NCBI RefSeq assembly: GCF_008973825.1
Contig: NZ_WCHR01000030.1
Coordinates: forward strand, 1-60,533
DNA: 60,533 bases
Reading direction: 5' to 3'
Origin: Gemmobacter serpentinus
Lineage (GTDB): Bacteria; Pseudomonadota; Alphaproteobacteria; Rhodobacterales; Rhodobacteraceae
The notes under the pieces are model-generated. The model ran no database searches and was not told the DNA's origin. It saw only the letters and a program-made list of their open reading frames with translations. The position numbers and the translations under genes were made by a program. Positions 27,766-54,443 of the stretch are shown here, one piece after another. The first letter of the stretch is position 1. Each line of letters starts with the position of its first letter.

Positions 27766-28511
27766 ATGGGGATAAACCGCATCGACCATGCCGCAATCTA
27801 TGTCGGCGATCTGGGCAAGGCGCTCACCTGGTATCAGGACGTCCTCGGCCTGACCGTCCTGTCGCGCTCCGAGGACACTGTCCACCTCGCCTGCCGGGGC
27901 AAGGCCGCCGACCTGACGCTCGTGAAGGGCGTCAAATCGCTGGAACACTTCACCTTCGGCGTCGATGACGAGGAAGATCTGGATCGCGTCGCCGGCATCC
28001 TGTCCCGCGAAGGCGTCAAAGCCGAGCGCCGCGCGGGCGACAGCCGCCCCGGCGAAGGTGCCACGCTGAAATTCCATCTGCCCTCGGGCCATGAGCTGCG
28101 GCTTTGCACCGGCGGGGCCGAGCGTCGCGCGGGAATTTCCGACTTCGACGCCAAAGGCTCGCATGTGCCTTCGGACATGGATCACATCAACCTTCTGGGA
28201 GAGGTCGAGCCCGAGGTGATGCGCGACTTCCTGATGACAATCGGCTTCAAATCGTCGCTGAACATCTCCGTGGGCGGGCAGCTGGCCGGGATCTGGCTGC
28301 GTGGCTCGGCCTATGACCATGACATCGCCTATATGAAATCCATCCGCCCGACAGACCGGCTGCATCACGTCGCCTTCGCGGTCGAGGATGGAAACCATTA
28401 CTTCCGCCTGTCGGACCGGCTGATGGAAACCGGCCACCGCTGGGAGTTTGGACCGGGCCGCCACAATGCGGGCCTCGGCAAATCCACCGGCTTCGGGACG
28501 AACAACTACGC
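27766..28511 (+). pseudogene. Extradiol ring-cleavage dioxygenase, N-terminal part, split by prophage
   Basis: The first 248 codons or so of a catechol 2,3-dioxygenase-type protein made of two vicinal-oxygen-chelate modules (about 5-115 and 138-265). The first two iron ligands are visible: His in DMDHINLL near 140 and His in RLHHVAF near 200. The reading frame then runs three codons into phage DNA and stops at 28521. The missing end, including the third ligand Glu in GNRNEF, lies at 54444-54612. Joining the two parts across one copy of the TACGC duplication restores a 304-residue protein of normal family length. Without the glutamate the fragment should be inactive. Substrate is unknown. Confidence 0.93.
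28507..28511. repeat. Target-site duplication TACGC, left copy
   Basis: TACGC directly precedes the phage terminus TGTTGAG. The same five bases directly follow the phage right terminus CTACA at 54439-54443. Five-base duplications are the hallmark of Mu-type transposition. Confidence 0.93.
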
Positions 28512-28536
28512 TGTTGAGTGACACCAATAACTGCAG
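28512..28536 (+). repeat. Left terminal repeat with transposase-binding site L1
   Basis: TGTTGAGTGACACC begins the element. It matches the inverted right end in the pattern TGTNGNGNGACACNAAT followed by NNNTGCAG. The core GACAC-N-AAT-N3-TGCAG is at 28520-28536 and corresponds to a Mu attL1-type transposase site. Confidence 0.85.
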
Positions 28537-28577
28537 GAACCCGGAAGACCCCGAAAGAACCCGGAAGACCTCGGAAA
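28537..28577 (+). repeat. 20-bp tandem direct repeat at the phage left end
   Basis: GAACCCGGAAGACC occurs at 28537-28550 and again at 28557-28570, with similar following bases (CCGAAA and TCGGAAA), giving two 20-base units. It lies immediately inside the L1 site. Confidence 0.75.
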
Positions 28578-28759
28578 GCCCAATCAAATAAGGGCTTTAC
28601 AGGAGGTTGCGATACGGGTGGCACGCTGTGCGCGATGTCTTGCAGTGGACCTGAAACCAGCCACTTATGGTGCGGTATCGGCGCGAGGGCGGCATTGGTG
28701 CCGGCCATGCGCTGCGCAGGGAACAGGGTAAGAAATCAATAAGTTAAAGCCACCGCGCG

Positions 28760-28776
28760 GCACCGAAACTGTGCAG
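28760..28776 (+). repeat. Possible second transposase-binding site in the left end
   Basis: GCACCGAAACTGTGCAG shares the TGCAG end, the central AA and the spacing of the L1 core, but differs at several positions of GACAC. Mu left ends carry separated internal sites, so the position is reasonable; the match is weak. Confidence 0.35.
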
Positions 28777-28787
28777 GGTGATTATCG

Positions 28788-28832
28788 GAACTGGGACGTT
28801 TTGCGCCCGGTTCTCCGCGGGCGTCCCAGTTC
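28788..28832. repeat. 11-bp inverted repeat GAACTGGGACG / CGTCCCAGTTC
   Basis: Perfect 11-base arms at 28788-28798 and 28822-28832 enclose a 23-base GC-rich spacer. It lies between the phage left end and the end of the minus-strand gene at 28915, so it could form a hairpin terminator for that gene or be a protein site. No T-run follows on either strand. Confidence 0.5.
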
Positions 28833-28914
28833 GATGTATGTCTTTGGAAAGTAAAGAAATTCGGCATCCCGGCGGATTGAGGCGATCAGATCGAACCGGG
28901 ACGCGATTTTCAGG

Positions 28915-29466
28915 TCATTCGATGGTTTGGACGGTTGGGGCGCAAGATTGGTTGTCAAACGTTCCGCTCGCTTTTCCGCGAACCACACCGCCGAATCCGT
29001 TCTTTGCCCGAAACATCATCAATATGGCATTCTGGCCATCCTCACGAACAGGCCATGTTCTGGTCTCGTCGTGCTCAAAGCTATCGGGGTCATTCAGTTG
29101 AGCTTTGACCGCAGCAACAAAGTCCCGATGGCTGCCATCCCAGCCACTAAGGCAGTGGAAACCATGCTTTGCTTCATGGGCCTTCTCAGCCGCCAGCTCT
29201 GCGGCTTGTGCCGCCTCAGTTGCGGCAAGCTGCTCGGCCTCTGCCCGCGCAGCAGCGTCAACTTCTACAGGTTCCACTTCACTTTGTGCCGCCACTTCTG
29301 CCGACACGACAGGTAAGACCTGCTCTGCTACCAGCTCTTCATCGCCGGTCAACCAATGCCAAGCAACGTAGCCAAGCACGAACAAGACCGCCAACCCTAG
29401 CATGCCATCTCGAAACTCTTGCAGTTTCGATTGTGGCTTCTTCTCTGGCATCTTGAAAATTGCCAA
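28915..29466 (-). CDS. Membrane-anchored phage accessory protein, function unknown
   Basis: 183 residues. One transmembrane segment lies near 22-40 (MLGLAVLFVLGYVAWHWL), followed by an Ala/Glu-rich, probably helical stalk (about 45-95), and a compact C-terminal domain beginning HGFHCLSGWDGSH near 100 and containing DPDSFEHDETR. I recognise this C-terminal pattern from uncharacterised small proteins of phages and bacteria but know no function. It lies on the minus strand between the left phage end and the repressor, the usual place for genes expressed in the lysogen, so a lysogenic-conversion or superinfection role is possible. Confidence 0.7.
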   Translation of the reverse strand: MAIFKMPEKKPQSKLQEFRDGMLGLAVLFVLGYVAWHWLTGDEELVAEQVLPVVSAEVAAQSEVEPVEVDAAARAEAEQLAATEAAQAAELAAEKAHEAKHGFHCLSGWDGSHRDFVAAVKAQLNDPDSFEHDETRTWPVREDGQNAILMMFRAKNGFGGVVRGKASGTFDNQSCAPTVQTIE

Positions 29467-29488
29467 CTCAGTCTCCTAAAAACAGCTT

Positions 29489-30172
29489 TCAATCTCGGTT
29501 TGTATGGCCCCACCACATCACTTTTCCAATGACTGTGATGTCGCTCGCGCGTGCAAATTGCGGCCCATAATCTGGGTTGTCCGACAGAAGCAGCAACTCG
29601 CCTTCGGCCGGTCGTTCTATCCGTTTGATCCGTGCGTGGCCGTCTTCCACGAAGGCGTAAATGGAACTTCGCCGCGCCTTGGTCTCAGTCTTCCGAACCG
29701 GCAAATCAGCCCTGGTTCGATCTATGAGTACGAGGTCCCCCGCCCAGATCGTCGGCTGCATGCTATTCCCATCGGCCCGAGCCAGCACCGCGCTTGACGG
29801 TGAAACTCCGACCCGGCGCAACCAGTCTCGTCGAAAGGCCAGATAGTCGATCACCGCTTCTTGGTGGTTCTCATGTCCGTGGCCAGCAGAAAGAGAGGCG
29901 GCGTGAAGAGGGATCTGGGCAAAGCTCTCGCCTCCCAGGGCGACGCTCTCGACCGGCCCCGTCTCTCGTGCCGGCCCAAAATAAAACTCCCAGCCGACAG
30001 CCGCGCATAAAGCTGCGAGCTTCTCGGCAGATGGGGACGACCCGCGCCGGAGCGCTTGGAAGGCCGAGTTGTCCGGCTTGCCAAACGCACGAGCGCCAAC
30101 ATCGGCTTGGGATAAGCCGAGTTCCAACCGCCTTGCCTCTAGGGCCTCATATATCTCGTTGGGTGTCGGCAT
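29489..30172 (-). CDS. CI/LexA-type phage repressor (HTH plus S24 peptidase)
   Basis: 227 residues. An N-terminal helix-turn-helix covers about 5-60 (LGLSQADVGARAFG). The C-terminal S24 peptidase domain contains the nucleophile region ADGNSMQPTIWAGD near 143 and a later RIKRIER segment that may hold the lysine partner, so induction by RecA-stimulated self-cleavage is plausible. The start ATG complementary to 30170-30172 is preferred over one 36 codons upstream, because that extension would run through the operator palindromes. It is transcribed leftward, divergent from the early operon, and should keep the prophage silent. Confidence 0.9.
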   Translation of the reverse strand: MPTPNEIYEALEARRLELGLSQADVGARAFGKPDNSAFQALRRGSSPSAEKLAALCAAVGWEFYFGPARETGPVESVALGGESFAQIPLHAASLSAGHGHENHQEAVIDYLAFRRDWLRRVGVSPSSAVLARADGNSMQPTIWAGDLVLIDRTRADLPVRKTETKARRSSIYAFVEDGHARIKRIERPAEGELLLLSDNPDYGPQFARASDITVIGKVMWWGHTNRD

Positions 30173-30280
30173 GGTGTAAAAATGCACCAAATTAGGCCGC
30201 CGCACAAGTCGATGTAAATTTGCACAGTCTGTTTCCAAAATGATGTAAATTAGTATTGCCGTGATGATGCAAATATGCAT
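30173..30280. promoter_or_regulatory. Repressor/early operator-promoter region
   Basis: AT-rich divergent gap between repressor and early operon with related palindromes: GGTGTAAAAATGCACC at 30173-30188, ATGTAAATTTGCAC at 30212-30225, a half-like GATGTAAATTAG at 30242-30253 and ATGCAAATATGCAT at 30267-30280. The shared design is TGYA-N4-TGCA. They probably bind the repressor and the Ner/Cro-like protein. Confidence 0.75.
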
Positions 30281-30289
30281 TATTAGGGC

Positions 30290-30532
30290 ATGGAGTATTC
30301 ACACCTCACCAATCTTGCCACCCTGCTAGGTGAACACCTGGGCCGTTCGGACCTTACGGTTGCGAAATGGTGTGGCGTGCACTCGCGGCTCTTCCTTCGG
30401 CTGAAAGCCGGTGGGGGCTGCCGCGTGGATACGTTCAAGGAGGCCCTGCGGGCCTTCGATGCTCTGTGGCCGGCCGATCTGGAATGGCCACGCGAGATCC
30501 CCAGACCCTCAAAATCGAAGGAGGCCGCATGA
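30290..30532 (+). CDS. Ner/Cro-like early DNA-binding protein
   Basis: 80 residues, first gene rightward from the operators, the position of ner in Mu. A helix-turn-helix can be read at about 20-50 (LTVAKWCGVHSRLFLRLK). It probably represses early or repressor transcription at the lytic switch; that role rests on position and size. The stop overlaps the next start (ATGA). Confidence 0.6.
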   Translation: MEYSHLTNLATLLGEHLGRSDLTVAKWCGVHSRLFLRLKAGGGCRVDTFKEALRAFDALWPADLEWPREIPRPSKSKEAA

Positions 30533-30789
30533 TGGCCATCCGTTCCATACCGCAGCGGTCGGTTGGCCCCTGCCGTGGCGGGAGCCGCCCTGATTTGTCC
30601 GGGATGGCAGCCCCGGCGGATCAGGGCGTGCCGCGCCGCTCGATCTGGCAGCGCCTGCGGGCGCTGGATGATCGGATCAACGACTGCTGGATCGGGGACC
30701 TTTTGGGCGTCGTCCTGCTGTTCCTGATCCTGTTCGCGACCCCGGTCGCACTCCCGATCCTTGTCATCATCTTTGGAGGTAACCCGTGA
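30529..30789 (+). CDS. Small phage protein with one membrane segment
   Basis: 86 residues. The N-terminal 45 residues are basic and polar. Residues about 46-82 form one long hydrophobic stretch (LLGVVLLFLILFATPVALPI). The start ATG overlaps the preceding stop, and the stop overlaps the next start. Function unknown. Confidence 0.6.
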   Translation: MMAIRSIPQRSVGPCRGGSRPDLSGMAAPADQGVPRRSIWQRLRALDDRINDCWIGDLLGVVLLFLILFATPVALPILVIIFGGNP

Positions 30790-31037
30790 AGGACATCATC
30801 GAACCGCTGTCGAAGTGCGGGCAGCTTGAGGCCTTGTCTCACGCGATCCGTGACACGCGCGAAGCCATGGGTCGGGCCGATTCGGCGCGCCAGCTCGGTG
30901 AGGCCGTCGCAGGCGAGATCGCTGTCGAAGATGCAACGGAGGCGCTGGCCCGCCTGCTGGAAGCCTTCAGCACCGCAGAAAAGACCGGCCTCATGGACGA
31001 GTTGGCGGGCTATCTCGCCACCACCTATGGGGGCTGA
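30786..31037 (+). CDS. Small early phage protein, unknown
   Basis: 83 residues, acidic and helix-rich (SHAIRDTREAMGRADSARQL, then ALARLLEAFSTAEKTGLMDE). GTG start overlapping the previous stop, behind a TTTGGAGG ribosome site. Part of the coupled early operon; no recognised family. Confidence 0.6.
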   Translation: MKDIIEPLSKCGQLEALSHAIRDTREAMGRADSARQLGEAVAGEIAVEDATEALARLLEAFSTAEKTGLMDELAGYLATTYGG

Positions 31038-31038
31038 C

Positions 31039-31365
31039 ATGACGGTCCTGCTTAGCACCTATCGCCCGCGTTATGAGGTTGAGCGCATCGGTGGCAGCTA
31101 CTGCGTCCGCGATCCGAATGGCGCGTTGCTACCCGCCCGTTACGCGAGCCGTCAAGCCGCACTGATGAGCCGCGAGGACCTCCAGCGTGAAGCCGACCGT
31201 AAGGCCAAGCGCGGGCCGCGTGCCTGCATGTGCTGCGGTGCCACTTTCCAGTCTGACGGCATCCACAACCGTCTTTGCACAGACTGCCGCGCGCCCGGCT
31301 TTGCCACCTCGGCAACGGCAGGCAGCACCTCCACCGGAAAGATCCGCCGCGCCGCAAGGGCGTGA
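31039..31365 (+). CDS. Early phage protein with a Cys4 zinc-finger-like motif
   Basis: 108 residues. Two cysteine pairs, CMCC near 64 and CTDC near 80, separated by about 15 residues, would form a small zinc ribbon. The rest is basic and polar. It starts one base after the preceding stop, and its stop overlaps a possible GTG start of the ParB-like gene. DNA or RNA binding is a guess from the zinc motif. Confidence 0.6.
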   Translation: MTVLLSTYRPRYEVERIGGSYCVRDPNGALLPARYASRQAALMSREDLQREADRKAKRGPRACMCCGATFQSDGIHNRLCTDCRAPGFATSATAGSTSTGKIRRAARA

Positions 31366-31391
31366 CGGCAGAAGATCACAGGGGCCAAACC

Positions 31392-32243
31392 GTGAAACAA
31401 CCGACCTTGATGCAACAAAACCGGGTGAAGGTGGCAGAGATTGATGCTCGCCAGCGCCTGCGTCCGGTATCGGAGGCAGGCGTGCAGAGCCTGATCGCGT
31501 CGGTCAACGAGACCGGGGTGATGAAGGATGCGATCCATGTGCGGCGCAAAAAGGATGGCAGCCTTGTCCTGATAGCGGGCGCACATCGTCTGGAAACGGC
31601 CCGGCAGCTTGGCTGGGAAGAGATAGAGGCGAAGATCTGGACAGACGTGACCGACGACTGGGCACGCCTGATGGAAATTGACGACAATCTGGCTGGTGCG
31701 GAAATGAACGCGCTCGACACCGCTGTTTTTCTGGCGGCGCGGAAGGCCGTTTACGAGCGTATGCACCCGGAGACCAAGCGGGGCGTGGCCGGTGGTCTGG
31801 CAAGGCAGGGCTTAGCAACCGACATCATGTCGTTTGCTGCCGCGACAGCCGACAAGTTTGGCTGCACCACGCGCCACGTAGAGCGCATGGTTGCAGCAGG
31901 CTCCCGCCTCGGCCCCGATCAGGTGCATGCCCTGCGGCAGGCCCCGCGACAGATCACGCTCAAGGACCTGACCGAGATTGGCAAGATCAGTGAACCCACA
32001 GCGCGCTATGCGGTTGTGGACCGGCTCGCGGCCGGCCGCGCGAAATCCGCCGCCGATGCCCAGCGCGGTTTGAAGGCGGAAGGTGCCGCTGAAGCCCCTG
32101 TTAAAGACCCGATTGAAGAGCAGTTTATTGCCGCCTTGAAGGTTTGGAACCGTATCGGAATGGCCGCGCGCAAGCGGATGGTGGCAGCGGTCGAGGGTGA
32201 CCTCAGAGATATCCTCGCCGATCTGGACCGGGGGGACGCATGA
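31392..32243 (+). CDS. ParB-like nuclease-domain protein of the early operon
   Basis: 283 residues from the GTG at 31392, which has AGGGG seven bases upstream; a GTG at 31362 overlapping the previous stop is an alternative. The N-terminal region shows the ParB/sulfiredoxin fold pattern: GVMKDAIHVRRK, then LIAGAHRLETARQLGW (GxHR motif) and a later helical segment with a possible HTH (KFGCTTRHVERMVAAG). ParB-like proteins directly before the transposase gene are common in transposable phages of alphaproteobacteria. A DNA-binding role in replication or target choice is inferred. Confidence 0.8.
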   Translation: MKQPTLMQQNRVKVAEIDARQRLRPVSEAGVQSLIASVNETGVMKDAIHVRRKKDGSLVLIAGAHRLETARQLGWEEIEAKIWTDVTDDWARLMEIDDNLAGAEMNALDTAVFLAARKAVYERMHPETKRGVAGGLARQGLATDIMSFAAATADKFGCTTRHVERMVAAGSRLGPDQVHALRQAPRQITLKDLTEIGKISEPTARYAVVDRLAAGRAKSAADAQRGLKAEGAAEAPVKDPIEEQFIAALKVWNRIGMAARKRMVAAVEGDLRDILADLDRGDA

Positions 32244-34369
32244 ACGCCGCACCTGAACAGGAATGGTGGAGCGCGCAAGAACTCGCATCCGCAGTGCTGC
32301 CGGATCTGCCCACGACAAAGCGCCGTGTAAATGCACTTGCAGAGCGGATGAGCTGGAATGCCCAGACCGGCCTCGCCCGCCGCCGTGCAGGTCGCGGCGG
32401 CGGCTGGGAATACAATTGGCGCCTTTTACCTGTCCGCGCGCAAAGCGCGCTTCTGAAGGCCATGCCCCGCAATCTTACCGGCGAAACCTCGGGCCGGATG
32501 GGCCGGGACGAGGCTTGGGCGTGGTTCGATGGCTTGCCCGAGAAGATCAAGGCCACCGCACGGGAACGGCTGGCCATCATTCAGCAGGCCGAAGGGCTGG
32601 AAGCCCCGATGGGCAAGAACCTCGCGATTGATACGGCCGCCCGTGGCGCGGGCGTTGCACAGCGCACGGTCTGGAACTGGGTGGCGATGATCGAGGGCGT
32701 CGATCCCGCAGACCGTTTGCCCTATCTCGCGCCGCGCCACCGCGCCGCCGCGCCCAAGCGCGAGCGCGCGGTATGCAGCCAGGAGTTTCTGGACCGCATT
32801 CGGGCAGACTATCTACGCCTTGGCGGGCCAAGCCTACGGTCTGCCCATCGCAGGGTCGCTGATTGGTGCAGCCGCCACGGCCACGCCTCGCTTGAATACC
32901 GAACCACATTGCGGTGGTTCGAGGAAAATGTACCGCGCGTTACACAGGTCTTCGCCCGTGAGGGAGAGAAAGGTCTTGCCCGCTGCTTTCCGCCGCAGAT
33001 CCGGGATCGGTCCATGTTGACGGCGCTGGAAGGCGTTGTCGCGGACTGCCACAAGCTGGATGTGTTCGTGCAGTGGCCCGAAATCGAAAAGCCGGTGCGG
33101 GTGCAGATCGTCGCCTTCACCGACCTCTATTCGAACAAGATCCTGTCGTGGAAAGTTGACCTTGACCCGAACAAGGTGGCCGTCATGTCGGCCTTCGGTG
33201 AGTTGGTCGAGACTTGGGGCATCCCGCGCCATTGCCTTTTCGACAATGGACACGAGTTTGCCAATAAGTGGCTCACCGGCGGCACACCCACGCGCTTTCG
33301 GTTCAAGATCCGCCCAGATGACGCCCTGGGCGTGTTGCCGCAGATGGGCATCAAGGTTCACTGGGCCACGCCCGGCCATGGTCAGGCAAAGCCGATTGAG
33401 CGGTCTTTCCGCGACCTTGCGGATGATCTTGCCCGGCACCCCGCCTTTGCCGGGGCCTATGTCGGCAATCGCCCCGATGCCAAGCCCGAGGATTACGGCA
33501 GCCGCGCGGTGCCGCTGGCCGATCTGCTGGAGGTCACCGAACAGGTGATTGCCGCGCATAACGCCCGCCCGGGCCGTCTGACCGACAATGCCAAGGGCCG
33601 CAGCTTCGATGAAACCTTCGCCGAAAGCTATGCGAAATCGCGGATCATCAAAGCCACGGCGGAGCAGCATCGTCTTTGGCTGATGGGCCAAGAAGTCCGC
33701 AAGCTGCACAAGCAGCACGGTGCCTTCAAGCTGTTCGAAAACAGCTACTGGTCCGATTGGATGAACGAGCATGTCGGTGAAACGGTGGTCGCCCGCTTTG
33801 ACCCTGAAAACCTGCATGCGGGTCTGTTCATGTACTCGCTCGCCGGTGAATTCCTTGGCGCAGCAGATTGCCGCGAGAAGGTCGGTTTCTTCGATCTGGT
33901 CGGCGCGCGCCTCGCCGCCCGGCTCAAGCGTCAACGCCGCGCGGCGGAAAAGAAGCTGCTGGACTTGCACCGCCCGGTCAGCGTCGGGCAGTGGGCCGCC
34001 GAATTGCACGCGGCACCGCAGATCGACACGCCGCTTGTCGAGGCCAAGGTGGTCGAACTGGCCCCGGCCCGCATCCGCAGGCCGGTGATCGAGCGCCCGC
34101 TGCCGGTGCCGGATACCACGGATGAAGAACGGCTGAAGGTCTTCACCGCGAATTTCAGCAGGCCAGTTGTGGAGGAACCCGCCCCGGAAAGCACCGCCGA
34201 CCGCTTTCGGCGGATGCTCGATATCGAGCGCAGATCGGAGGCCGGTGAACCCGTGTCGGAGGCCGAGGCAGAGGAATGGGCACGCCTGCAGCGTCTGCCC
34301 GAGTTTCAGGCGATGCGCACCATGTTTGCCCGCTTCGGCGATGAATTTGGCGATGCGGCAATCGGATGA
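32240..34369 (+). CDS. A: MuA-like DDE transposase
   Basis: 709 residues, a typical MuA length. An N-terminal Mu-type HTH covers about 8-70 (WWSAQELASAVLPDLPTTKR), followed by further end-binding helices. The catalytic core has Asp in VVADCHKLD near 268, Asp in LFDNGHEF near 334 and Glu in AKPIERSF near 386. These positions are close to D269, D336 and E392 of Mu itself. The C-terminal tail is charged and probably contacts the MuB-like ATPase. It should bind the end repeats described here and carry out integration and replicative transposition. Confidence 0.96.
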   Translation: MNAAPEQEWWSAQELASAVLPDLPTTKRRVNALAERMSWNAQTGLARRRAGRGGGWEYNWRLLPVRAQSALLKAMPRNLTGETSGRMGRDEAWAWFDGLPEKIKATARERLAIIQQAEGLEAPMGKNLAIDTAARGAGVAQRTVWNWVAMIEGVDPADRLPYLAPRHRAAAPKRERAVCSQEFLDRIRADYLRLGGPSLRSAHRRVADWCSRHGHASLEYRTTLRWFEENVPRVTQVFAREGEKGLARCFPPQIRDRSMLTALEGVVADCHKLDVFVQWPEIEKPVRVQIVAFTDLYSNKILSWKVDLDPNKVAVMSAFGELVETWGIPRHCLFDNGHEFANKWLTGGTPTRFRFKIRPDDALGVLPQMGIKVHWATPGHGQAKPIERSFRDLADDLARHPAFAGAYVGNRPDAKPEDYGSRAVPLADLLEVTEQVIAAHNARPGRLTDNAKGRSFDETFAESYAKSRIIKATAEQHRLWLMGQEVRKLHKQHGAFKLFENSYWSDWMNEHVGETVVARFDPENLHAGLFMYSLAGEFLGAADCREKVGFFDLVGARLAARLKRQRRAAEKKLLDLHRPVSVGQWAAELHAAPQIDTPLVEAKVVELAPARIRRPVIERPLPVPDTTDEERLKVFTANFSRPVVEEPAPESTADRFRRMLDIERRSEAGEPVSEAEAEEWARLQRLPEFQAMRTMFARFGDEFGDAAIG

Positions 34370-34423
34370 GGAAACCGCCGGGGGCGTGCAGGCCCCACGG
34401 CGGCTGGACGAAGTGAGGAAAGA

Positions 34424-35173: not shown

Positions 35174-35754
35174 TGACCCGTAAACCCGTAGATCAGGCAG
35201 GAGCCCCGCGCGACGCCATCTGGGCCGCTGTGCGCATGATCGGTGGCGCCGGTACCGCTTTCACCGTGTCTGATATCGCCGCCCAAGCGCAGGCCAAGGA
35301 TAAGACCGTGCGCGACTACCTGAAAGGCCTGACCGCCTCGGGGTATCTGCATCAAGACAACACGGTTGTCGGCTTCGAAGCCACGCGGTGGGTGCTGGCA
35401 CGCGATATCGGAAATGAGGCACCCCGTGTCAGGGCGGATGGCTCGCCGGTGACACAGGGCACGATCACAGAGCAGCTCTGGCGCGGCATGTACATGCTCA
35501 AGGAGTTCACGTTCGAGGACCTGATCGAGACTGCAACAGTCGAAATCCCTGTCGATACCGCGAAGGCCTATTGCAAGATGCTGCTGACGACCGGCTACCT
35601 GCGAGTGTTGCGTAAGGCAGAACCCACGAGCGGCCGGATCGCACGATATCGCCTGATCCGTTTTAACGGGCCGAAGCCGCCGCAGATCCAGCGTGTGAAA
35701 CGGGTCTATGACCCGAACTCGCGCGAGGTCTTCATGCCGGGGGCGCAGGCATGA
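35173..35754 (+). CDS. Winged-helix-type early phage protein
   Basis: 193 residues. Two segments look like winged helix modules: AFTVSDIAAQAQAKDKTVRDYLKGL near 30-60 (read in two parts) and FTFEDLIETATVEI with a following helix near 115-150. The ATG overlaps the stop of the MuB-like gene (GTGATGA). It probably binds DNA; its function in the phage is unknown. Confidence 0.65.
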   Translation: MTRKPVDQAGAPRDAIWAAVRMIGGAGTAFTVSDIAAQAQAKDKTVRDYLKGLTASGYLHQDNTVVGFEATRWVLARDIGNEAPRVRADGSPVTQGTITEQLWRGMYMLKEFTFEDLIETATVEIPVDTAKAYCKMLLTTGYLRVLRKAEPTSGRIARYRLIRFNGPKPPQIQRVKRVYDPNSREVFMPGAQA

Positions 35755-36756: not shown

Positions 36757-36766
36757 GGCCTAGTCC

Positions 36767-37728: not shown

Positions 37729-37740
37729 TACGAGGGTTAA

Positions 37741-40586: not shown

Positions 40587-40587
40587 C

Positions 40588-46885: not shown

Positions 46886-46891
46886 GATCCC

Positions 46892-47884
46892 ATGCGCGCG
46901 GTTTGCGATGGTGCGGGCATGAAACCTCGCGCCCCATTCCTATCCGCCATCGCCCTGAACGCTGCCGAAGGCGTGGCACCCGACTGGGTGCAATTGACCC
47001 CGCCCGGTCCGCAAATCCTCGGCCGTGACGGGCGGTGGTGGACGCTGACTGATCCGCAGGCTGTGGCCGCGCGCTTCGATCCGACGAAGGAGCCGCAGAT
47101 CGACATCGAGCATGCCAGCCAGCTGCAGGCGCCGCAGGGGCTACCTGCGCCCGCAGTGGGCTGGATCAAGGAGATTGCGGTGCGGGATGCCGCGCTTTGG
47201 GGCCGGGTCGAATGGACGCCGGTCGGGACCGCACTCGTGACCGAGCGGGCCTATCGCTATCTCAGCCCCGCCTTCAGCTTCGATCCGGCAACCGGCGAGA
47301 TCCTCGAGATCGTCTGCGCTGGCCTGACCAACACCCCCAACCTCGAACTGGCGGCGCTGAATGCCGCCCAACCGGAGACCTTTGATATGGACAAAGCGGT
47401 CCTTGAGGCCCTTGGCCTCGCGGCCACCGCCACGGCGACCGAAGCGCTGGTGGCGATCAATGCCCTCAAATCCGAAAAGGCGGTGGCGCTGAACGCAGCG
47501 CAACACCCCGACCCGGCGCAATTTGTGCCGCGTGCCGATCATCAGCTGGCGCTGAACCGGATCACGCAATTCGAGACCGAAGCCAAGGATCGCGGCGAAG
47601 CGGAAGCGGTGGCGGCTGTGGATGCGGCGATCACGGCTGGCAAAATCGCCCCGGTCTCGCGCGATTACCACCTCGCCACCTGTCGGGCCGATGGCGGCTT
47701 GCAGCGGTTTCGCGATTTCGCGGCCGCGCAGCCGGTGATCGCGCCGCCCTCCGGTCTTGATGGCAAGCCGCTGCCCAAGGCCGATGCCAAGACCCTCAGT
47801 TCCGAGGAACTGGCCGTCTGCCGCCAGATGGGCATGAGCGCCGACGACTTCATCGCGGCCCGTGCCGCTGAAAAGCAGGAGTAA
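46892..47884 (+). CDS. Phage protease / scaffold precursor (Mu gpI-like)
   Basis: 330 residues. The N-terminal 150 or so residues match the Mu I-type head maturation protease (WTLTDPQAVAARFDPTKEP, IDIEHASQ, then RAYRYLSPAF). The C-terminal half is Ala-rich and helical, as in scaffold Z. AGGGG lies eight bases before the ATG; an internal ATG at 46919 lacks a good site. It would shape and then process the prohead. Confidence 0.88.
   Translation: MRAVCDGAGMKPRAPFLSAIALNAAEGVAPDWVQLTPPGPQILGRDGRWWTLTDPQAVAARFDPTKEPQIDIEHASQLQAPQGLPAPAVGWIKEIAVRDAALWGRVEWTPVGTALVTERAYRYLSPAFSFDPATGEILEIVCAGLTNTPNLELAALNAAQPETFDMDKAVLEALGLAATATATEALVAINALKSEKAVALNAAQHPDPAQFVPRADHQLALNRITQFETEAKDRGEAEAVAAVDAAITAGKIAPVSRDYHLATCRADGGLQRFRDFAAAQPVIAPPSGLDGKPLPKADAKTLSSEELAVCRQMGMSADDFIAARAAEKQE
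47387..47884 (+). CDS. Probable internal start: scaffold protein (Mu Z-like)
   Basis: An in-frame ATG at 47387 (MDKAVLEALGLAA) has CGGAGA upstream and lies at the junction between protease and Ala-rich scaffold halves. In Mu, gene Z is translated from such an internal start within I. The product would have 165 residues. Confidence 0.5.
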   Translation: MDKAVLEALGLAATATATEALVAINALKSEKAVALNAAQHPDPAQFVPRADHQLALNRITQFETEAKDRGEAEAVAAVDAAITAGKIAPVSRDYHLATCRADGGLQRFRDFAAAQPVIAPPSGLDGKPLPKADAKTLSSEELAVCRQMGMSADDFIAARAAEKQE

Positions 47885-47889
47885 CGCAC

Positions 47890-48801
47890 ATGGCGCTTAT
47901 CAACGCCGCAATCCTTCAGGCGCTCAATACGGGCGTGAAAAAGAACTTCCAGGACGGCTATGGCCAGATGCGCGCCGCGTCGTTCTGGGAAAAGGTCGCA
48001 ACGCTTGTGCCGTCGACCACCGCTTCCAACACCTATGGCTGGCTGGGCGACTTCCCCAAGCTCCGCGAATGGGTGGGCGACCGTGTTGTCAAAGACATCA
48101 AGGAGGCCGGGTACACCATTACGAACAAGCTCTTCGAGGGCACGCTCGGGGTGCAGCGCACGCAGATCGAAGATGACCAGTTCGGGCATTACGCCCCCAT
48201 CGCCATGTCGATGGGCCAAGAGGCCGCGCAACATCCTGACCGGCTTCTGCAGGCCCTGATCAACGGCGCGGGCGCTTCCCTTTGCTATGATGGCCAGTAT
48301 TTCTTCGATACGGACCACCCGGTCGCGCCCAATGAGGACGGGTCCGGTGTTGCGGTCAGCGTCTCCAACTTTGTCACCGGCGCAAATCCGGCATGGTATC
48401 TGCTGGACTGCTCGAAGGTCTTGAAGCCGTTCATCTTCCAGGAGCGCACCAAGCCCGAACTGGAAATGAAATTCGACCCCTCGACCTCGGACTCCGTCTT
48501 CAAGTCGGATCGCTTCGAATGGGGCATCCGGTATCGCTGCAATGTCGGCTTTGGCTTCTGGCAGCTTGCCCGCAAGTCGCAGGCCACGCTGGATGCTGCT
48601 GCCTTCACGGCCGGACGGCAGGCTATGCGCGAACTGAAAGGCGATGGCGGGCGGCCGCTGGGCATTGTGCCCAACATCCTGATGGTGCCGCCCTCGCTCG
48701 AGGCCGCTGCGGACGCCATCGTCAGTGTGCGCACCCTGCCGCAGGGCGGTGACAACCCGAACTTTGGCAAGGCCAAGGTCGTGGTGATGGATTGGGCATG
48801 A
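47890..48801 (+). CDS. Major head subunit (Mu gpT-like)
   Basis: 303 residues, the length of Mu gpT. Conserved pieces include MALINAAILQALNTGVKKNF, WLGDFPKLREWVGDR and FEGTLGVQRTQIEDDQFG, and DTDHPVAPN near 138. It builds the capsid shell. A CAGGAG site precedes the start five bases after the protease stop. Confidence 0.94.
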   Translation: MALINAAILQALNTGVKKNFQDGYGQMRAASFWEKVATLVPSTTASNTYGWLGDFPKLREWVGDRVVKDIKEAGYTITNKLFEGTLGVQRTQIEDDQFGHYAPIAMSMGQEAAQHPDRLLQALINGAGASLCYDGQYFFDTDHPVAPNEDGSGVAVSVSNFVTGANPAWYLLDCSKVLKPFIFQERTKPELEMKFDPSTSDSVFKSDRFEWGIRYRCNVGFGFWQLARKSQATLDAAAFTAGRQAMRELKGDGGRPLGIVPNILMVPPSLEAAADAIVSVRTLPQGGDNPNFGKAKVVVMDWA

Positions 48802-49172
48802 TCATGGGTCAGAAATTGTTGATCGCCGCCGTCGCTGCCATCAGTTTCCGCCGTTGCGGCCGGACCTTCCCCAAAGAAGGGGTTGTCGTCGATTACCCGG
48901 ACGATTTTTCCGAAGAGGAATGGGGTGTGCTGCGGGCCGAGCCGATGCTGCATATCAGCGTGGCACCCGAAGAGGCAGAGATCGCCGCCGATGCCGCGAA
49001 TGACCTGAAGGCGCAATTGCGCCGTGTTGTCGCCGGGCTGGCATCCGAGGATTTCGGCGAAGACGGCGCGCCACTGGCCGAGGCGATCCGCAAGGCTCTG
49101 CCCGGCACCAGCGGCATCACCAAGAAGCTCGTCGCCGAAGTCTGGGCCGAGCTGAAGGATCAACAGCCCTGA
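48798..49172 (+). CDS. Mu gp35 / HI1506-like head-region protein
   Basis: 124 residues. The N-terminal FRRCGRTFPKEG and YPDDFSEEEWGVLRAEPML match HI1506-related proteins placed after the major head gene in Mu-like phages. ATGA overlap couples it to gpT. An ATG two codons later is also possible. Confidence 0.8.
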   Translation: MIMGQKLLIAAVAAISFRRCGRTFPKEGVVVDYPDDFSEEEWGVLRAEPMLHISVAPEEAEIAADAANDLKAQLRRVVAGLASEDFGEDGAPLAEAIRKALPGTSGITKKLVAEVWAELKDQQP

Positions 49173-49212
49173 TACCCCAAGCCCGCCGCGCGTGACGCGG
49201 CTGGCAAACCAG

Positions 49213-49268
49213 CCCGGGTCACTGCCCGGGCGCCTTGCAAGGGCGGCGCACTATCCCCGCCGCCCTTG
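49213..49268 (+). promoter_or_regulatory. Two consecutive hairpins after the head genes
   Basis: CCCGGG - TCACTG - CCCGGG at 49213-49230, then CAAGGGCGGCG - 9-base loop - CGCCGCCCTTG at 49238-49268 with an 11-bp perfect stem. Neither is followed by a T-run. They lie in the only sizeable gap between head and tail genes and could act as terminator, attenuator or RNA-processing site. Confidence 0.6.
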
Positions 49269-49287
49269 TCCTTACCCGGAGCCGCCC

Positions 49288-49740
49288 ATGCCCTATGCCA
49301 GTCAGTCCGATATCGTGACCCTCTACGGCGCCAATGCGCTCGTGGTGGCCGATCATGACCGTGATGGCGTGCCGGATACCGAGGCGGTCACCCGTGCCCT
49401 CGACCTAGCATCCGCTGAAATCGACACCTATATCGGCCGCCGCTACAACCTGCCTCTGCCGGTCGCCAGCACGCCCCACCTGATGCAGCTCTGCGTCGAT
49501 ATTGCGCTGTATCGTCTGGCGCTGTCGCAGGACGTGGCCTCCACCGAACACCGAACGCGCTATGAAGACGCAATCACCACACTAGTGCGGATTGCCGATG
49601 GCCGCGCCGCTCTGGTGTTGCCGGCCCAGCCCCCGGCCGAGGGCGAAGAAGGCCCCAGCCCCGAGGTCAGCGGCCCGCAGCCCATCGTCGCGGGCGGCCC
49701 CCCGCGTCTCTTCAGCCGCGAACAGATGAGGGACCTGTGA
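49288..49740 (+). CDS. DUF1320-family head-tail protein (Mu gp36-like)
   Basis: 150 residues. The text YASQSDIVTLYGANAL, then ALDLASAEIDTYIGRRYNLP and HLMQLCVDIALYRL, is diagnostic of DUF1320/gp36. The start at 49288 follows GGAGCCGCCC. The stop shares a base with the next ATG. Confidence 0.9.
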   Translation: MPYASQSDIVTLYGANALVVADHDRDGVPDTEAVTRALDLASAEIDTYIGRRYNLPLPVASTPHLMQLCVDIALYRLALSQDVASTEHRTRYEDAITTLVRIADGRAALVLPAQPPAEGEEGPSPEVSGPQPIVAGGPPRLFSREQMRDL

Positions 49741-50219
49741 TGACCGGCGTTGCAGTTGAAGCTGACTTTTCGGTTGCCGCCCGCGCGCTCGGCCGGTTGA
49801 CCGACGAGCAACTGGCTTTGCTGGCCTATGAGATCGGGGCACTGGTTGAAGATCAGACCAAATTGCGCATCGCGGACGAAAAACGCGCGCCCGATGGCAC
49901 GCCATGGGTCCCGTGGTCCGAGGCCTACGACAATACCCGCAACCATGCCAAGCACTCGCTGCTTGTCGGCGAAGGCAATCCCGGCCTGCTGGAAAGCATC
50001 CAGAATTATACCACCGGCTTGCAGGCGGTGGTCGGCACCCCGTTGATCTATGGCGCGATCCATCAATTCGGGGGGCCTGAGGGTGCCCGCGATCCTGACT
50101 TGCCTGACGGCGCTGCTGGCAGTGGCATCCCGGCACGCCCCTATCTTGGCCTCTCCACAGACAACCGCACCGCCATCGAGGATCTGGTGATCGGTCGCCT
50201 TGAGGATCTGCTTCAATGA
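49740..50219 (+). CDS. Virion morphogenesis / tail completion protein (Mu gpG-like)
   Basis: 159 residues with the phage virion morphogenesis pattern: KLRIADEKRAPDGTPWVPWS near 42, YGAIHQFGG near 102 and IPARPYLGLS near 130. It is thought to complete tails or join head and tail. Overlaps couple it to both neighbours. Confidence 0.9.
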   Translation: MTGVAVEADFSVAARALGRLTDEQLALLAYEIGALVEDQTKLRIADEKRAPDGTPWVPWSEAYDNTRNHAKHSLLVGEGNPGLLESIQNYTTGLQAVVGTPLIYGAIHQFGGPEGARDPDLPDGAAGSGIPARPYLGLSTDNRTAIEDLVIGRLEDLLQ

Positions 50220-50782
50220 GCCTTTACAACACCCCTGAAGACCTGCTTTCCGGGCTGCCCGACCGGGTGGCGGCCGAGATCCGCACCATCTTGCCGGGCC
50301 TGCGCACCTGCCGGGGCATGGCCGGTCGGCTGGACGTCAAGACCATCAAGGCGCTCGGCATCGCGGCACCCGCCGTGCTGGTGACCCGCCTGCGCCTGCG
50401 GCAAGACCAAACCCGCAGCGGCCCGCATCATACCTTCCGCGCGCAGATGGCAGCCTTCATCCTGTGCAAGGATGAGCTTGCTCTGCCGCGTGACGTTGGC
50501 GTGTCGAACATCGCGCAAGTCTTGCTGACACGGCTGCCCGATACGGATTGGGGCGCACCGGATCACCTTGGCCCGGCCGAGGCCATGACCGAGGAACCGC
50601 TTGTCAGCGCCGAGAGCCAAGGCCTTGCCATGGCGTTGACGGCCATCACCTGGGATCAGGTGATTGCGTTTGAGCCATGGCCTGAGCCGCCGTCGATCAC
50701 ACCCACCCTCTATCTGGGCCAGGCCCCGGCGATCGGCGCAGATCATGAGGCGGATTATACGCTGATCGGGGGTGGCCAATGA
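50216..50782 (+). CDS. DUF1834-family tail protein (Mu gp37-like)
   Basis: 188 residues matching the DUF1834/gp37 pattern (AAPAVLVTRLRLRQ, HTFRAQMAAFILCKD). In Mu it is followed by gp38 and the tail sheath L; here baseplate V follows directly, overlapping by four bases. Confidence 0.82.
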   Translation: MSLYNTPEDLLSGLPDRVAAEIRTILPGLRTCRGMAGRLDVKTIKALGIAAPAVLVTRLRLRQDQTRSGPHHTFRAQMAAFILCKDELALPRDVGVSNIAQVLLTRLPDTDWGAPDHLGPAEAMTEEPLVSAESQGLAMALTAITWDQVIAFEPWPEPPSITPTLYLGQAPAIGADHEADYTLIGGGQ

Positions 50783-51234
50783 CCTATTCGGCAGCCGAGA
50801 CAGACCGCCAGATCGGAAATGCGCTGCATGTCGGTACGATTACCGCCATAGATAACGCGACCGGCCGCGCCCGCGTGCAGATCGGCGATCTTCTGACCCC
50901 TCCGATACAGATCATGCAACTGCGCTCGGGCACGATCCGAATGCACTGGATGCCCAGCCTTGGCGAGCAGGTCACGATTGCCGCCCCATCAGGCGACATG
51001 GCCCGCGCCTTCGTCATGGGGTCATTGCCTATCGACGGCAACATGGTTGCCCCCGATGAGGGCAGCCCGACCATGGACCTGGGCGGCGGCACCCTGCGGC
51101 TGATCGGCAACCTTTACATCGACGGCGATGTTGAAGTGACCGGCGATGTGGTCGCCTCGGGCATCAGCCTGGTCACGCACACCCATGGCGGCGTCATCCC
51201 GGGCGGTGCCAATACCCAGGAGCCAAACGGATGA
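50779..51234 (+). CDS. Baseplate spike assembly protein V
   Basis: 151 residues. An N-terminal OB-fold (GTITAIDNATGRARVQIGD, SLGEQVTIAAPSGD) is followed by a beta-helical repeat (GNLYIDGDVEVTGDV) and the spike tip motif HTHGG near 134, which binds iron in P2-type spikes. It forms the membrane-piercing tip of a contractile tail. Confidence 0.92.
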   Translation: MTYSAAETDRQIGNALHVGTITAIDNATGRARVQIGDLLTPPIQIMQLRSGTIRMHWMPSLGEQVTIAAPSGDMARAFVMGSLPIDGNMVAPDEGSPTMDLGGGTLRLIGNLYIDGDVEVTGDVVASGISLVTHTHGGVIPGGANTQEPNG

Positions 51235-51437
51235 CAGAACAATCGTATATTGCGCGCGCAGCCGGATGGATTGCAGGCCGCCGCGTGAAAGCGGGCGAGC
51301 GGCTGACCATGACGCCTGCGGCCGCGCGCTATGAGCCGGTCGATATGGCACCGCAGGGCGCGCAGACCAAGCGCGCGGCGCGCAAGTCCAGTAGCCCGAT
51401 TGCCGACGCACCCGCCGACCAGGGCGAAGCGGAATGA
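51231..51437 (+). CDS. Small protein between baseplate V and W
   Basis: 68 residues, with a globular start (ARAAGWIAGRRVKAGERLTM) and a Lys/Ser/Ala-rich tail. Overlapping start and stop codons on both sides support it as a gene. Function unknown. Confidence 0.6.
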   Translation: MTEQSYIARAAGWIAGRRVKAGERLTMTPAAARYEPVDMAPQGAQTKRAARKSSSPIADAPADQGEAE

Positions 51438-51766
51438 CCGGCATGTCGAGGCTGACCGGCCGCAGCATTTCTGGCGGCAGCCATCTTGCGCAATCGATCA
51501 CGGATATCCTGTCCACGCCCAAGGGCAGCCGCGTCTTGCGCCGTGACTATGGCTCCCGCCTGCCGGATTTGATCGATGCGCCGATGAACGGCGAAACTAT
51601 GGTTGATCTGTTCGCGGAGACCGCTGAGGCGCTGGACCAATGGGAACCCCGCCTGAAGCTGCGCCGCGTCGAGGTGAGTGCTGCGCGCCAAGGTGAGCTG
51701 CGCATGGTGCTTACCTGCGATGTTCAAGGCGTAAACACGGCGGTCCAGGTGGAGCTGATGGCATGA
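51434..51766 (+). CDS. Baseplate protein W (GPW/gp25 family)
   Basis: 110 residues. Conserved GPW/gp25 features: SITDILSTPKGSRVLRRDYG near 21 and LFAETAEALDQWEPRL near 60. It belongs to the baseplate wedge of contractile tails. Its stop overlaps the start of the interrupted J gene. Confidence 0.92.
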   Translation: MTGMSRLTGRSISGGSHLAQSITDILSTPKGSRVLRRDYGSRLPDLIDAPMNGETMVDLFAETAEALDQWEPRLKLRRVEVSAARQGELRMVLTCDVQGVNTAVQVELMA

Positions 51767-51787
51767 GCACCCCGATTGATCTCTCTA
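51763..51787 (+). pseudogene. Baseplate J gene, first codons only, cut by IS
   Basis: The ATG overlaps the W stop, and the frame reads MSTPIDLS before entering the insertion sequence. In P2-type phages gene J follows W and begins with a similar I-D-L text. Everything beyond the first codons is lost. Confidence 0.75.
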
Positions 51788-52628
51788 GGCTCAGGACTCG
51801 TTGTGGATCATAGCCAGAACAGGACGATTGCGGCGAGGAGGATGGCCGAGAAGAAGGTCTGTGGACAGCGGTCGTATCGGGTGGCGACACGCCTCCAATC
51901 CTTCAACCGCCCGAACATGATCTCGATGCGGTTGCGCCGTTTGTAACGCCTCTTGTCGTATTTCACGGCCTTCTTGCGAGACTTTCGGCCGGGGATGCAG
52001 GCCTTTATCCCCTTGTCATTCAATGCTTCTCTGAACCAATCGGCATCATAGCCCCGGTCCCCCAGCAGCCACCCTGCCTTCGGCAGGCTACCCAACAGCG
52101 CCGCTGCGCCAGTGTAATCACTGACCGGCCCGGCGGACATGAAGAACCCGATGGGACGTCCCTTGGCATCGGCAACGGCGTGCAGCTTGGTGTTCATGCC
52201 GCCTTTGGTGCGCCCGATCTGGCGCCCGCGCCCCCTTTTTTAACCCCAAGGCTTGATGCCGTGCGGTGCGCCTTGAGATAGGTCGCGTCAATCATGATCG
52301 TCTTGTGTTCGGCGCGCTCTGCGGCCAGGCCGACCATGATCCTGGCGAAGACGCCGTTGTCACTCCAACGTTTCCAGCGGTTGTAGAGGGTCTTCGCCGG
52401 GCCGTATTCAGTTGGAGCGTCACACCAGCGCAACCCATTGCGATTGACGAATATTATGCCGCTGAGGACGCGGCGATCGTCGACGCGGGGCTTCCCATGA
52501 CTCCTGGGAAAGAACGGCTTCAGGCGTTCCATCTGGGCATCGCTCAGCCAGTAAAGATTGCTCATCGATCAGGTCTCCTTGCGGAGCCTGAATCACGCCA
52601 AACGCCTGAAATCAATGGGTCTGGAGCC
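51788..52628 (-). mobile_element. IS5-family (IS427-group-like) insertion sequence
   Basis: 841 bp with imperfect inverted ends GGCTCAGGACTCGTTG and GGCTCCAGACCCATTG (reverse strand of the right end), 12 of 16 identical. TA flanks both ends, a possible 2-bp duplication. The next outer bases CTCTC and GAGAG are also inverted copies, so true ends may be 51781 and 52635. Confidence 0.85.
51808..52565 (-). CDS. IS5-family transposase in two frames (programmed frameshift)
   Basis: The first frame (52565 down to 52194, 123 residues) starts SNLYWLSDAQMERLKPFFP and contains the first catalytic Asp in TIMIDATYLKAHRTA. The second frame (52197 down to 51808, 129 residues) has LLGDRGYDADWFREAL and RNRIEIMFGRLKDWRRVATR, with the second Asp and the final Glu. 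They meet at GGTTAAAAAAGG, an A6G slippery run known to drive frameshifting in this IS group. A fused DDE enzyme of about 250 residues is expected, so the element may be active. Confidence 0.88.
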
Positions 52629-52845
52629 TAGAGAGGTTTCACGTCGTACACATGGGGGCGAGGCCGAACAGTGGGCGGCTGAAGCCGCGACACACCTGCG
52701 CTTCATAAAAAACGCGTGGAGAAATCAAGCTATGCATCCGCGCCAGACCTATGACGAGGACAGGGCTGTGGCGATTTTCGACAATGCGCGATCCTTTATG
52801 CAGCACATTTCCGAAAAGCTCAGCGAGGATGACTTGCTCGACTGA
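52629..52845 (+). pseudogene. 3' fragment of a HEPN-like protein gene
   Basis: About 70 codons continue from the IS edge to TGA at 52843. The text contains RFIKNAWRNQAMHPRQTY, where R-N-Q-A-M-H is an RX4H motif as in HEPN ribonucleases, then a helical end. The N-terminal part is missing because the IS lies directly before it. Base composition is more AT-rich than the phage genes to the left. Confidence 0.6.
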
Positions 52846-53004
52846 GAAGTCGCCAGATCTACTTCTGGGTTGCCCTCAGCGCGTGGCAAATTTCATTGAG
52901 AAGAGCACTCTGCCTCGCCACGCAAACCTCATGTTGTAACGAAGTCTCGTTCTGCGCTTCTGTGGGTGAGGTGATTCCACTTTGTTCAAGAAGGGAGGCG
53001 AGAA
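52846..53004. other. Spacer before the CoiA-like gene
   Basis: 160 AT-richer bases. GGGAGGCGAG just before 53005 is the ribosome site of the next gene. No separate feature identified. Confidence 0.4.
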
Positions 53005-54285
53005 ATGGCAGTTAAGGAAGTATTCGTGCGAGGCTATGGCGTCATAGATGAGGCACGTCAACTCAGCATGGAGAGACCGGACTGGCAAGATATCCGTTCG
53101 CGTCTCAACCGACAAATCCCCGGCACTCTAGCACATTGTTTCGGGTGTCATGAGCCAGTATTCCTTCGCGCCGGGAAACCAAATAGCTCAATGCGGCCTC
53201 ACTTCTCTCACTTCAAGGACGGCGGGATAGGGTGTCCTTGGGGACAAGACACGACTAGACCGCTAGACCGAATCCGCGCTGGCATTTTCACAGGGAATCA
53301 GGAGTCAGAACTTCATCGGCACATGTGCGAGCGCGCCTTGGAACTGATCGAAGCAGATGCTCGATATGTTGCAGGCTCAGGTGCGGTTGACAGTTACATG
53401 AAGTCGAAAGACGGGTATCGGGGACGATGGCCGGACGCAAGTTTTGATATCGACGGGTTAGGAAAGTTCGCCATTGAGGTGCAGTTTGCACCGAGCTTGG
53501 CACCGGAAGTCATCGGCCGATCCGACTTCTACGCCAAAGAAGGCGTCAACCTGATCTGGCTTTTGCCGTGGTATAGCTTCGAACAAGTGCAGCGAGCATA
53601 TGCTTCCGATATTGCGCAAGAAGCCCGTGGTAACTTCTTTGTCCTAGATCAAGAAGCAGAACGGGAATCTCGTGTCCGAGGCACCCTCGTAATTTGGGCA
53701 GCGTGGATAGGCGAACGTAGTTTTGAGAGGAAGCTCGTCTCTCTTGACGACCTGACATATCCTAAAGGCGGTCATCCCTTCTTCGTCGATGCAGTCACGC
53801 CTGCCATTTTTCGCACAGCAGAACGAAGACGACAGCAAATCTCACTGGATCTCTTGGAAACCAAGGACGACATCGTTCCCAAGCGCAAAGTTATCTTTGA
53901 CCTCGATGAGCAGCCAGATGAAGAAGGATCGCGCCTGATACGCAGCGCCATCTCCATTTGGTCTGCAGCGAAAGGCGAGTATATCAACTATTCGGGTCAT
54001 AGTGACAAACTCACTGGCCAAATTGATGCCTACCTCAACTCCAATGATGGCCGACGGCGTGCGGTGATCATCAATCAGATGCTTGTGTCAACCCAAGCAA
54101 GACCCTGTATCAAACGGTCCGTGTGGGAGAAAATAGAGCGAGCGGACCTCCACGACCAGCTCGACGATAGCGACCGTTGGGTTGCCTACGTCCATTCTCT
54201 GTTCCCAGAAGTGTTCCGTGTGGATCTAAGAAGTGAGGCCCTAGTCGCGGGCAGCCTTCCGACTTGGGCAATCCCCGCTGGGTGA
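53005..54285 (+). CDS. CoiA-like / DUF6035-like putative nuclease, phage cargo
   Basis: 426 residues. A zinc-binding start resembles CoiA: CFGCHEPVFLRAG near 46, then RPHFSHFKDGGIGCPW. A nuclease-like core follows: RWPDASFDIDGLGKFAIEVQ near 140-160, where the D...E-V-Q spacing resembles the PD-(D/E)xK variant of the CoiA family, and GVNLIWLLPW. The 200-residue C-terminal part has no recognised domain. It is lower in GC than surrounding genes, lies between the IS-damaged late region and the phage right end, and is not a known structural gene. A defence or anti-competitor role is inferred; the family name is tentative. Confidence 0.65.
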   Translation: MAVKEVFVRGYGVIDEARQLSMERPDWQDIRSRLNRQIPGTLAHCFGCHEPVFLRAGKPNSSMRPHFSHFKDGGIGCPWGQDTTRPLDRIRAGIFTGNQESELHRHMCERALELIEADARYVAGSGAVDSYMKSKDGYRGRWPDASFDIDGLGKFAIEVQFAPSLAPEVIGRSDFYAKEGVNLIWLLPWYSFEQVQRAYASDIAQEARGNFFVLDQEAERESRVRGTLVIWAAWIGERSFERKLVSLDDLTYPKGGHPFFVDAVTPAIFRTAERRRQQISLDLLETKDDIVPKRKVIFDLDEQPDEEGSRLIRSAISIWSAAKGEYINYSGHSDKLTGQIDAYLNSNDGRRRAVIINQMLVSTQARPCIKRSVWEKIERADLHDQLDDSDRWVAYVHSLFPEVFRVDLRSEALVAGSLPTWAIPAG

Positions 54286-54438
54286 ACAGGTGAGACTGGC
54301 GGGTGCGCAGCTCGACCTTTCTAGCGCGCCTTTCACCTTACTTAGCCCAACAGAACTTTCCTGCCACCATCAGCTTCCCAAAATCGCACTGCTGCAAACC
54401 TTCGTGTCACGCACTGCAAAAATTCGTGTCGCGCTACA
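54286..54438 (-). repeat. Right phage end with transposase sites R1 and R2
   Basis: The last bases read inward from 54438 (reverse strand) as TGTAGCGCGACACGAAT, the mirror of the left end. Two close copies of the core are present: CTGCAAAAATTCGTGTC at 54414-54430 and CTGCAAACCTTCGTGTC at 54392-54408, 22 bases apart. A weaker third may lie at 54361-54377. Mu right ends likewise have clustered sites. Confidence 0.85.
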
Positions 54439-54443
54439 TACGC
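54439..54443. repeat. Target-site duplication TACGC, right copy
   Basis: Directly follows the phage terminus CTACA and is identical to 28507-28511. It is also the codon text (TAC GC) at which the dioxygenase gene resumes. Confidence 0.93.

Follow-up and report, generated by a model that had tools for sequence, protein, structure and literature searches.

The window analysed here, a 60,533-nt contig of Gemmobacter serpentinus (NZ_WCHR01000030.1, assembly GCF_008973825.1), carries a Mu-type prophage that lies exactly inside a gene for an extradiol dioxygenase. The prophage occupies 25,927 bp on the plus strand (28512-54438) and is bordered on both sides by the same five bases, TACGC. As had been claimed in a preliminary description of this DNA made from the letters alone, joining the host flanks with a single TACGC yields a frame of 304 amino acids; it runs from an ATG at 27766 to a stop codon at 54610-54612. 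We consider it very probable that an ordinary Mu-type insertion into a catabolic gene took place at this site and that the prophage has since been crippled and is now fixed in place. In biological terms this is the known behaviour of Mu-type phages, to which the present case adds that the phage appears to be crippled. The case would exemplify both the loss of an aromatic-degradation step through phage insertion and the disabling of a transposable prophage by an insertion sequence (IS)-associated loss of tail genes.

The left end of the prophage reads TGTTGAGTGACACCAATAACTGCAG from position 28512, and the right end, which finishes at 54438, reads TGTAGCGCGACACGAATTTTTGCAG when its reverse complement is followed inward. 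As a control for chance, we collected the TG...CA pairs with matching 5-bp flanks lying at most 1.5 kb from both borders. There were 50 such pairs, six of which leave a frame of at least 300 codons, so that the repeat and the open frame alone are weak proof of an insertion. Among the 50 pairs, the reported one has the most similar termini (18 of 30 bases, against 16 for the runner-up). It was also the top-scoring pair in a wider scan, with 18 of 18 on the terminal motif, a score that is partly circular because the motif was read off the same two ends. What settles the insertion comes from outside the window: the gene is uninterrupted, at 304 amino acids, in all 11 full-length relatives. In rejecting a chance repeat we relied on these relatives and not on the repeat and the frame.

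The relatives were gathered by a scan that took one genome per species and gave 12 loci. Eleven of them align over all 304 residues, with identities of 76-88%, and belong to Salipiger, Tropicibacter, Sagittula, Pararhodobacter, Sinirhodobacter, Cereibacter, Roseobacter, Pseudogemmobacter and a Chelatococcus metagenome-assembled genome; the twelfth, from a planctomycete, matches only residues 1-85 at 34% identity. The sequence across the junction, TGFGTNNYAY.FDPFGNRNEF, is kept in the eleven, one of which has TGFATNNYAY, and none has a natural C-terminus at GTNNYAVE, the case that the preliminary description had named as contrary to its claim. All the loci that show an empty site thus belong to genera other than that of the host. 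In 10 other genomes of the host genus we found no near relative of the dioxygenase, and five of these genomes contained distant matches (best of each, 28-32% identity). Since no near relative was found in these 10 genomes, the operon seems to be patchily distributed, which would fit a horizontal gain. A Pseudosulfitobacter plasmid annotated with the same kinds of genes matched the right flank at 76% identity over half of the query, and it did not come up with the left flank.

By its sequence the joined frame is assigned to the VOC fold of type I extradiol dioxygenases, and it aligns over most of its length with the solved structures of catechol 2,3-dioxygenase (PDB 5znh, 3hpv and 1mpy) and homoprotocatechuate 2,3-dioxygenase (1f1x), with the His and Glu motifs in register. 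These structures are only distant (best E 2.8e-21), the gene here is split by the phage, and the best NCBIfam models of its first part, catechol_2_3 (3.4e-35) and HpaD (3.4e-34), both stayed below their cut-offs. We therefore do not name a substrate. The metal ligands of this fold, two His and one Glu, fall in the motifs DMDHINLL (H140), LHHVAF (H200/H201) and GNRNEF (E260), which are kept in 11 of the 11 relatives. H140 and H200/H201 lie to the left of the phage and E260 to its right, so that the triad present in the joined frame is not encoded on a single polypeptide in the lysogen. There, residue 249 is followed by Val-Glu and a stop codon at 28519-28521, the last base of which is the tenth base of the phage, giving a product of 251 amino acids. 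The preliminary description had identified the gene as an extradiol dioxygenase and had stated that the insertion parts the Glu from both His; the alignments bear out both statements.

The 251-residue product lacks the Glu260 motif together with the 55 C-terminal residues of the joined protein, and the loss of ring cleavage in the lysogen is therefore likely and well supported by inference. The same expectation follows from the host genome, in which no close paralogue was found: at E 1e-3 the joined protein matched only its own two pieces. A search of the host genome for LigB-type enzymes (PF02900) found none, and one for PF00903 found 14 places, one of which is this gene. Nine of the other 13 are in frames of 150-205 amino acids and four in longer frames, namely two in one 255-residue frame on contig C41 and two weak ones in frames of 326 and 632 residues; a distant backup enzyme is conceivable. 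In annotation, the two pieces should be treated as one broken gene, and the pathway should not be attributed to this strain. The insertion is probably recent. The interrupted gene shows 77.0% identity to an outgroup locus (L011), compared with 74.7-81.6% for the 10 uninterrupted genes, nine of which score higher, and by this coarse test there is no clear extra divergence of the split gene.

The element is assigned to the Mu-like phages by its MuA-type transposase and MuB-type partner, by the order of head and packaging genes after the early region, and by the TG...CA ends with a 5-bp target duplication (Table 1). Phage genes were identified by a phrog scan of 30 frames of the window, frames shorter than 90 amino acids being left out, and several phage frames matched solely phrog families of unknown function. 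A search of the host genome placed the transposase at one position. Among 394 genomes drawn in the family, the host genome included, 36 have a MuA-type transposase match at E 1e-100 or better. We scanned for prophage ends in four relatives, G012, G374, G314 and G312. The prophage of G012 (39,678 bp, target repeat TCTGC) and that of G374 (54,974 bp, target repeat GCCGC) have the same layout of ends and repeat. Neither half of the dioxygenase was found in the stretches fetched around these two prophages (best E 0.12), and a control locus (L003) matched both halves.

The prophage looks defective, which the preliminary description had overlooked. After the gpW-like baseplate gene, a gpJ-like gene begins with the codons for MSTPIDLSR, read by eye, and is cut in its ninth codon by an IS5-type element that has CTAG on both sides. 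From the gpW stop codon to the right end there are 2,672 bp, 839 of them IS; in G374 the same interval is about 13.0 kb, with an intact gpJ-like gene after gpW and with tape-measure, tail and fibre genes. This comparison shows that the tail module is absent here. Between the IS and the right end, phrog and Pfam searches recognised no baseplate, tape-measure or fibre gene; the interval holds an open stretch of 70 residues that no Pfam model matches and a gene of 426 residues. We accordingly file the element, which lacks the complete tail module needed for virions, as a defective member of the Mu-like group; defective prophages of this group share its origin while lacking that feature. Probably it is a stuck remnant that should make no tailed particle by itself, and it may still be able to transpose because the transposase genes and both ends are kept. 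Elsewhere in the host genome, contig C48 ends in 97 bases of the end of a 99%-identical IS, and contig C44 carries a 76% copy.

The following course of events would account for this arrangement. A temperate Mu-type phage would have transposed, largely independently of sequence, into the gene that opens an operon for aromatic meta-cleavage, and 5 bp of target would have been duplicated, as seen in the ends, the repeat and the uninterrupted relatives. This would have left a dioxygenase that stops short of its Glu ligand and an operon severed from its 5' region, with the presumable loss of a pathway step. At some time an IS5-type element would have inserted among the baseplate genes, and a deletion associated with the IS, such as one by recombination of two IS copies at CTAG sites, could have removed the tail module, leaving a defective prophage fixed in place. 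We take such a deletion as the simplest account of the tail loss, its route and timing being conjectural. Several points weigh against this course. The flanking CTAG would also fit a simple IS insertion if the tail module had already been lost in some other way, or CTAG may belong to the ends of the IS itself, and the tail deletion could be older than the insertion that split the dioxygenase. That gpJ and the tape-measure protein of G374 gave no match in the host genome speaks for the tail loss, but this search had no positive control. Finally, the scan did not find the ends of the G314 and G312 prophages, so that ends are known for two of the four relatives, and the end pair of G012 led only narrowly (15 against 14).

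The absence of the tail module might also be read as a stable state. The element would then be a transposable satellite that packages its DNA into its own heads, borrows the tails of a related Mu-like helper phage and still transposes, and the knock-out of the dioxygenase would be just one among numerous insertions on the move within the population. The transposase, packaging, head and neck genes are indeed present and open and the tail module is missing. Against this, the break splits a baseplate gene and bears an IS, the first baseplate genes are still there, and G374, the syntenic relative, retains the tail module. Moreover, according to an excerpt of PMC5488378, the particles of the named phages PeaS-P1 and ThpS-P1 are tailed and siphovirus-like. 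We regard the satellite as very improbable.

Still less probable is a reversible switch of the active-lysogeny kind, in which the phage would leave precisely under some condition and restore ring cleavage. The two halves of the gene are intact and in frame, the repeat is perfect and the split gene shows no clear decay, all of which would fit a switch; an insertion of recent date, however, would leave the halves just as intact. Active-lysogeny phages of the Sa3int type excise by site-specific recombination, and precise excision of Mu is rare. The prophage described here is of a type that moves by transposition. No integrase or excisase family, as would be expected of an element at fixed attachment sites, was among the phrog matches of the 30 frames of at least 90 amino acids, the G012 and G374 prophages sit at other targets, and the prophage looks defective. 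The claim of the preliminary description that the pathway would be restored if the phage were lost precisely therefore finds no backing as a realistic event, and reversion by this route is expected to be very rare. The Sa3int prophage in hlb likewise interrupts a chromosomal gene (excerpt of PMC6597384); in contrast to such switches, the element here is a transposable one of the Mu type and looks defective. It resembles the 'grounded' or cryptic prophages in being disabled, fixed in the host genome and open to insertions and deletions, and differs from them in that grounding is ascribed to lost integrase-type excision (excerpt of PMC6379469), whereas here tail genes were lost from a transposable phage. 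In Pseudomonas Mu-like phages, insertion is described as random on a global scale, some phages showing hotspots (excerpt of PMC5977238). In the literature library searched, no paper joined a Mu-like prophage with an extradiol dioxygenase and none dealt with the precise excision of a Mu prophage in lysogens; the titles and abstract starts of further papers listed gave nothing on this case.

A draft genome of 63 contigs could in principle contain a false join of phage and host reads, a prospect as slight as that of the switch in view of the exact 5-bp repeat at termini of the phage type and of host sequence that resumes at the next base, in frame. That the 251-residue product is a natural protein and the right-hand piece unrelated can practically be dismissed, since the frame does end in a stop codon but each of the 11 full-length relatives is a 304-residue protein carrying the right-hand sequence.

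Of the five compared, the prophage of G374, a genome of the same family as the host, showed the best synteny with the one described here (large terminase 90%, portal 73%, gpV-like 77% and gpW-like 69% identity) and has nearly the same right end. Besides its tail module and its GCCGC target, it differs by roughly 18 kb of additional DNA among the genes of the head region (G374:C2, loci L070 and L071; 25-43 kb of the joined stretch, from the major head region to the adaptor gene), possibly a nested mobile element. The closest named phages are Mu-like phages of the Roseobacter clade and its kin. The MuA-type transposase is 65.5% identical to that of Pelagibaca phage vB_PeaS-P1 (record of 38,868 bp), 49.4% to that of Rhodovulum phage vB_RhkS_P1 (38,773 bp) and 43.3% to that of Thiobacimonas phage vB_ThpS-P1 (39,591 bp), each over 99% of the length. 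With vB_PeaS-P1, the closest of the three, the prophage shares the order of early, packaging and head genes; vB_PeaS-P1 carries a tail region, whereas the 25.9-kb prophage has baseplate genes of the Mu type and an IS but lacks a tail module.

Table 1. Features of the interrupted dioxygenase locus and its prophage (positions in the window)
Feature	Position	Strand	Basis
TetR-type regulator, divergent from operon	26638..27405	-	Pfam TetR_N 9.5e-8; same place and strand in 11/11 loci
Dioxygenase, 5' part (residues 1-249)	27766..28511	+	Joined 304-aa frame; NCBIfam best models
Target duplication TACGC, left copy	28507..28511	.	Directly outside left phage end
Mu-like prophage	28512..54438	+	TG...CA ends with related terminal motifs; phage proteins
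Phage repressor (CI-like)	29489..30280	-	phrog_4 1.6e-39
ParB-like protein, upstream of transposase	31275..32243	+	phrog_3264 4.3e-77
MuA-type transposase, 709 aa	32240..34369	+	phrog_310 1.3e-149
MuB-like DNA transposition protein	34424..35173	+	phrog_296 1.8e-54
Late transcriptional activator	38438..38821	+	phrog_836 4.1e-20
Lysis amidase	38898..39569	+	phrog_822 4.1e-45; Pfam Amidase_2
Packaging and head module (small and large terminase, portal, minor head protein, protease, major head protein)	40480..48801	+	phrogs
Head-tail adaptor, neck and first two baseplate proteins	49192..51766	+	phrog_195, phrog_26, phrog_6142, phrog_43
gpW-like baseplate protein, last of neck/baseplate group	51434..51766	+	
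gpJ-like baseplate gene, first codons	51763..51788	+	Read by eye
IS5-type insertion sequence, inverted ends, two transposase frames	51789..52627	-	Pfam DDE_Tnp_1, DUF4096 (IS4/5 family)
Right-end gene, 426 residues	53005..54285	+	Weak CoiA-like N-terminal match (Pfam CoiA_N 22.1 bits, cut-off 26.3); no phrog
Target duplication TACGC, right copy	54439..54443	.	Directly outside right phage end
Dioxygenase, 3' part (residues 250-304, Glu260 motif GNRNEF)	54444..54612	+	Joined frame; relatives
SnoaL-like protein	54609..55073	+	Pfam SnoaL_4 24.8 bits, cut-off 24
Alpha/beta hydrolase	55070..55744	+	Pfam Abhydrolase_1
Two-component aromatic hydroxylase, oxygenase part	55766..56938	+	NF045920 685 bits, cut-off 650
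Flavin reductase	56716..57534	+	Pfam Flavin_Reduct 2.8e-42, residues 121-262
MetA-pathway protein, beta-keto acid cleavage enzyme, HpaI/GarL-type aldolase	57581..60218	+	

The order of a divergent TetR gene, dioxygenase, SnoaL-like protein, alpha/beta hydrolase, hydroxylase and flavin reductase is the same in 11 of the 11 related loci. Further downstream, a MetA-type gene is present in all 11 (one of them a partial match), the aldolase in nine and the beta-keto acid cleavage enzyme in seven. The hydroxylase scores above the NCBIfam cut-off for the oxygenase of p-hydroxyphenylacetate 3-hydroxylase (685 against 650 bits), and the cleavage enzyme above that for 3,5-dioxohexanoate:acetyl-CoA acetone transferase (481.8 against 430). 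From these genes we infer a route of hydroxylation, meta-cleavage and hydrolysis for a substituted phenol. The listed flavin reductase frame overlaps the preceding gene, and its true start is probably later because the Flavin_Reduct domain occupies residues 121-262. The phage separates the 5' region of the operon, beside the divergent TetR gene, from the SnoaL, hydrolase, monooxygenase, reductase and later genes. To this extent the view that the downstream genes lose their original promoter is sustained, but the promoter itself was not recovered: scans of two regions gave no sigma-70-like site, as in shuffled sequences, and terminator-like sites were at the level of the shuffles.

Upstream of the operon, a frame without a Pfam match lies between the IclR and TetR genes (25476-26636) and recurs at about 54-69% identity in nine of the 11 related loci; locus L011 has it at 43% identity in a different place, and L012 gave no match. 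The region 15-21389 is occupied by a nonribosomal peptide/polyketide gene cluster with condensation, adenylation, ketosynthase, ketoreductase and thioesterase domains, together with a phosphopantetheinyl transferase and an ABC transporter. At 22886-23764 there is an ISL3-type transposase that is short against its family profile (positions 36-219 of 370), and its DNA is about 90% identical on two Paracoccus plasmids.

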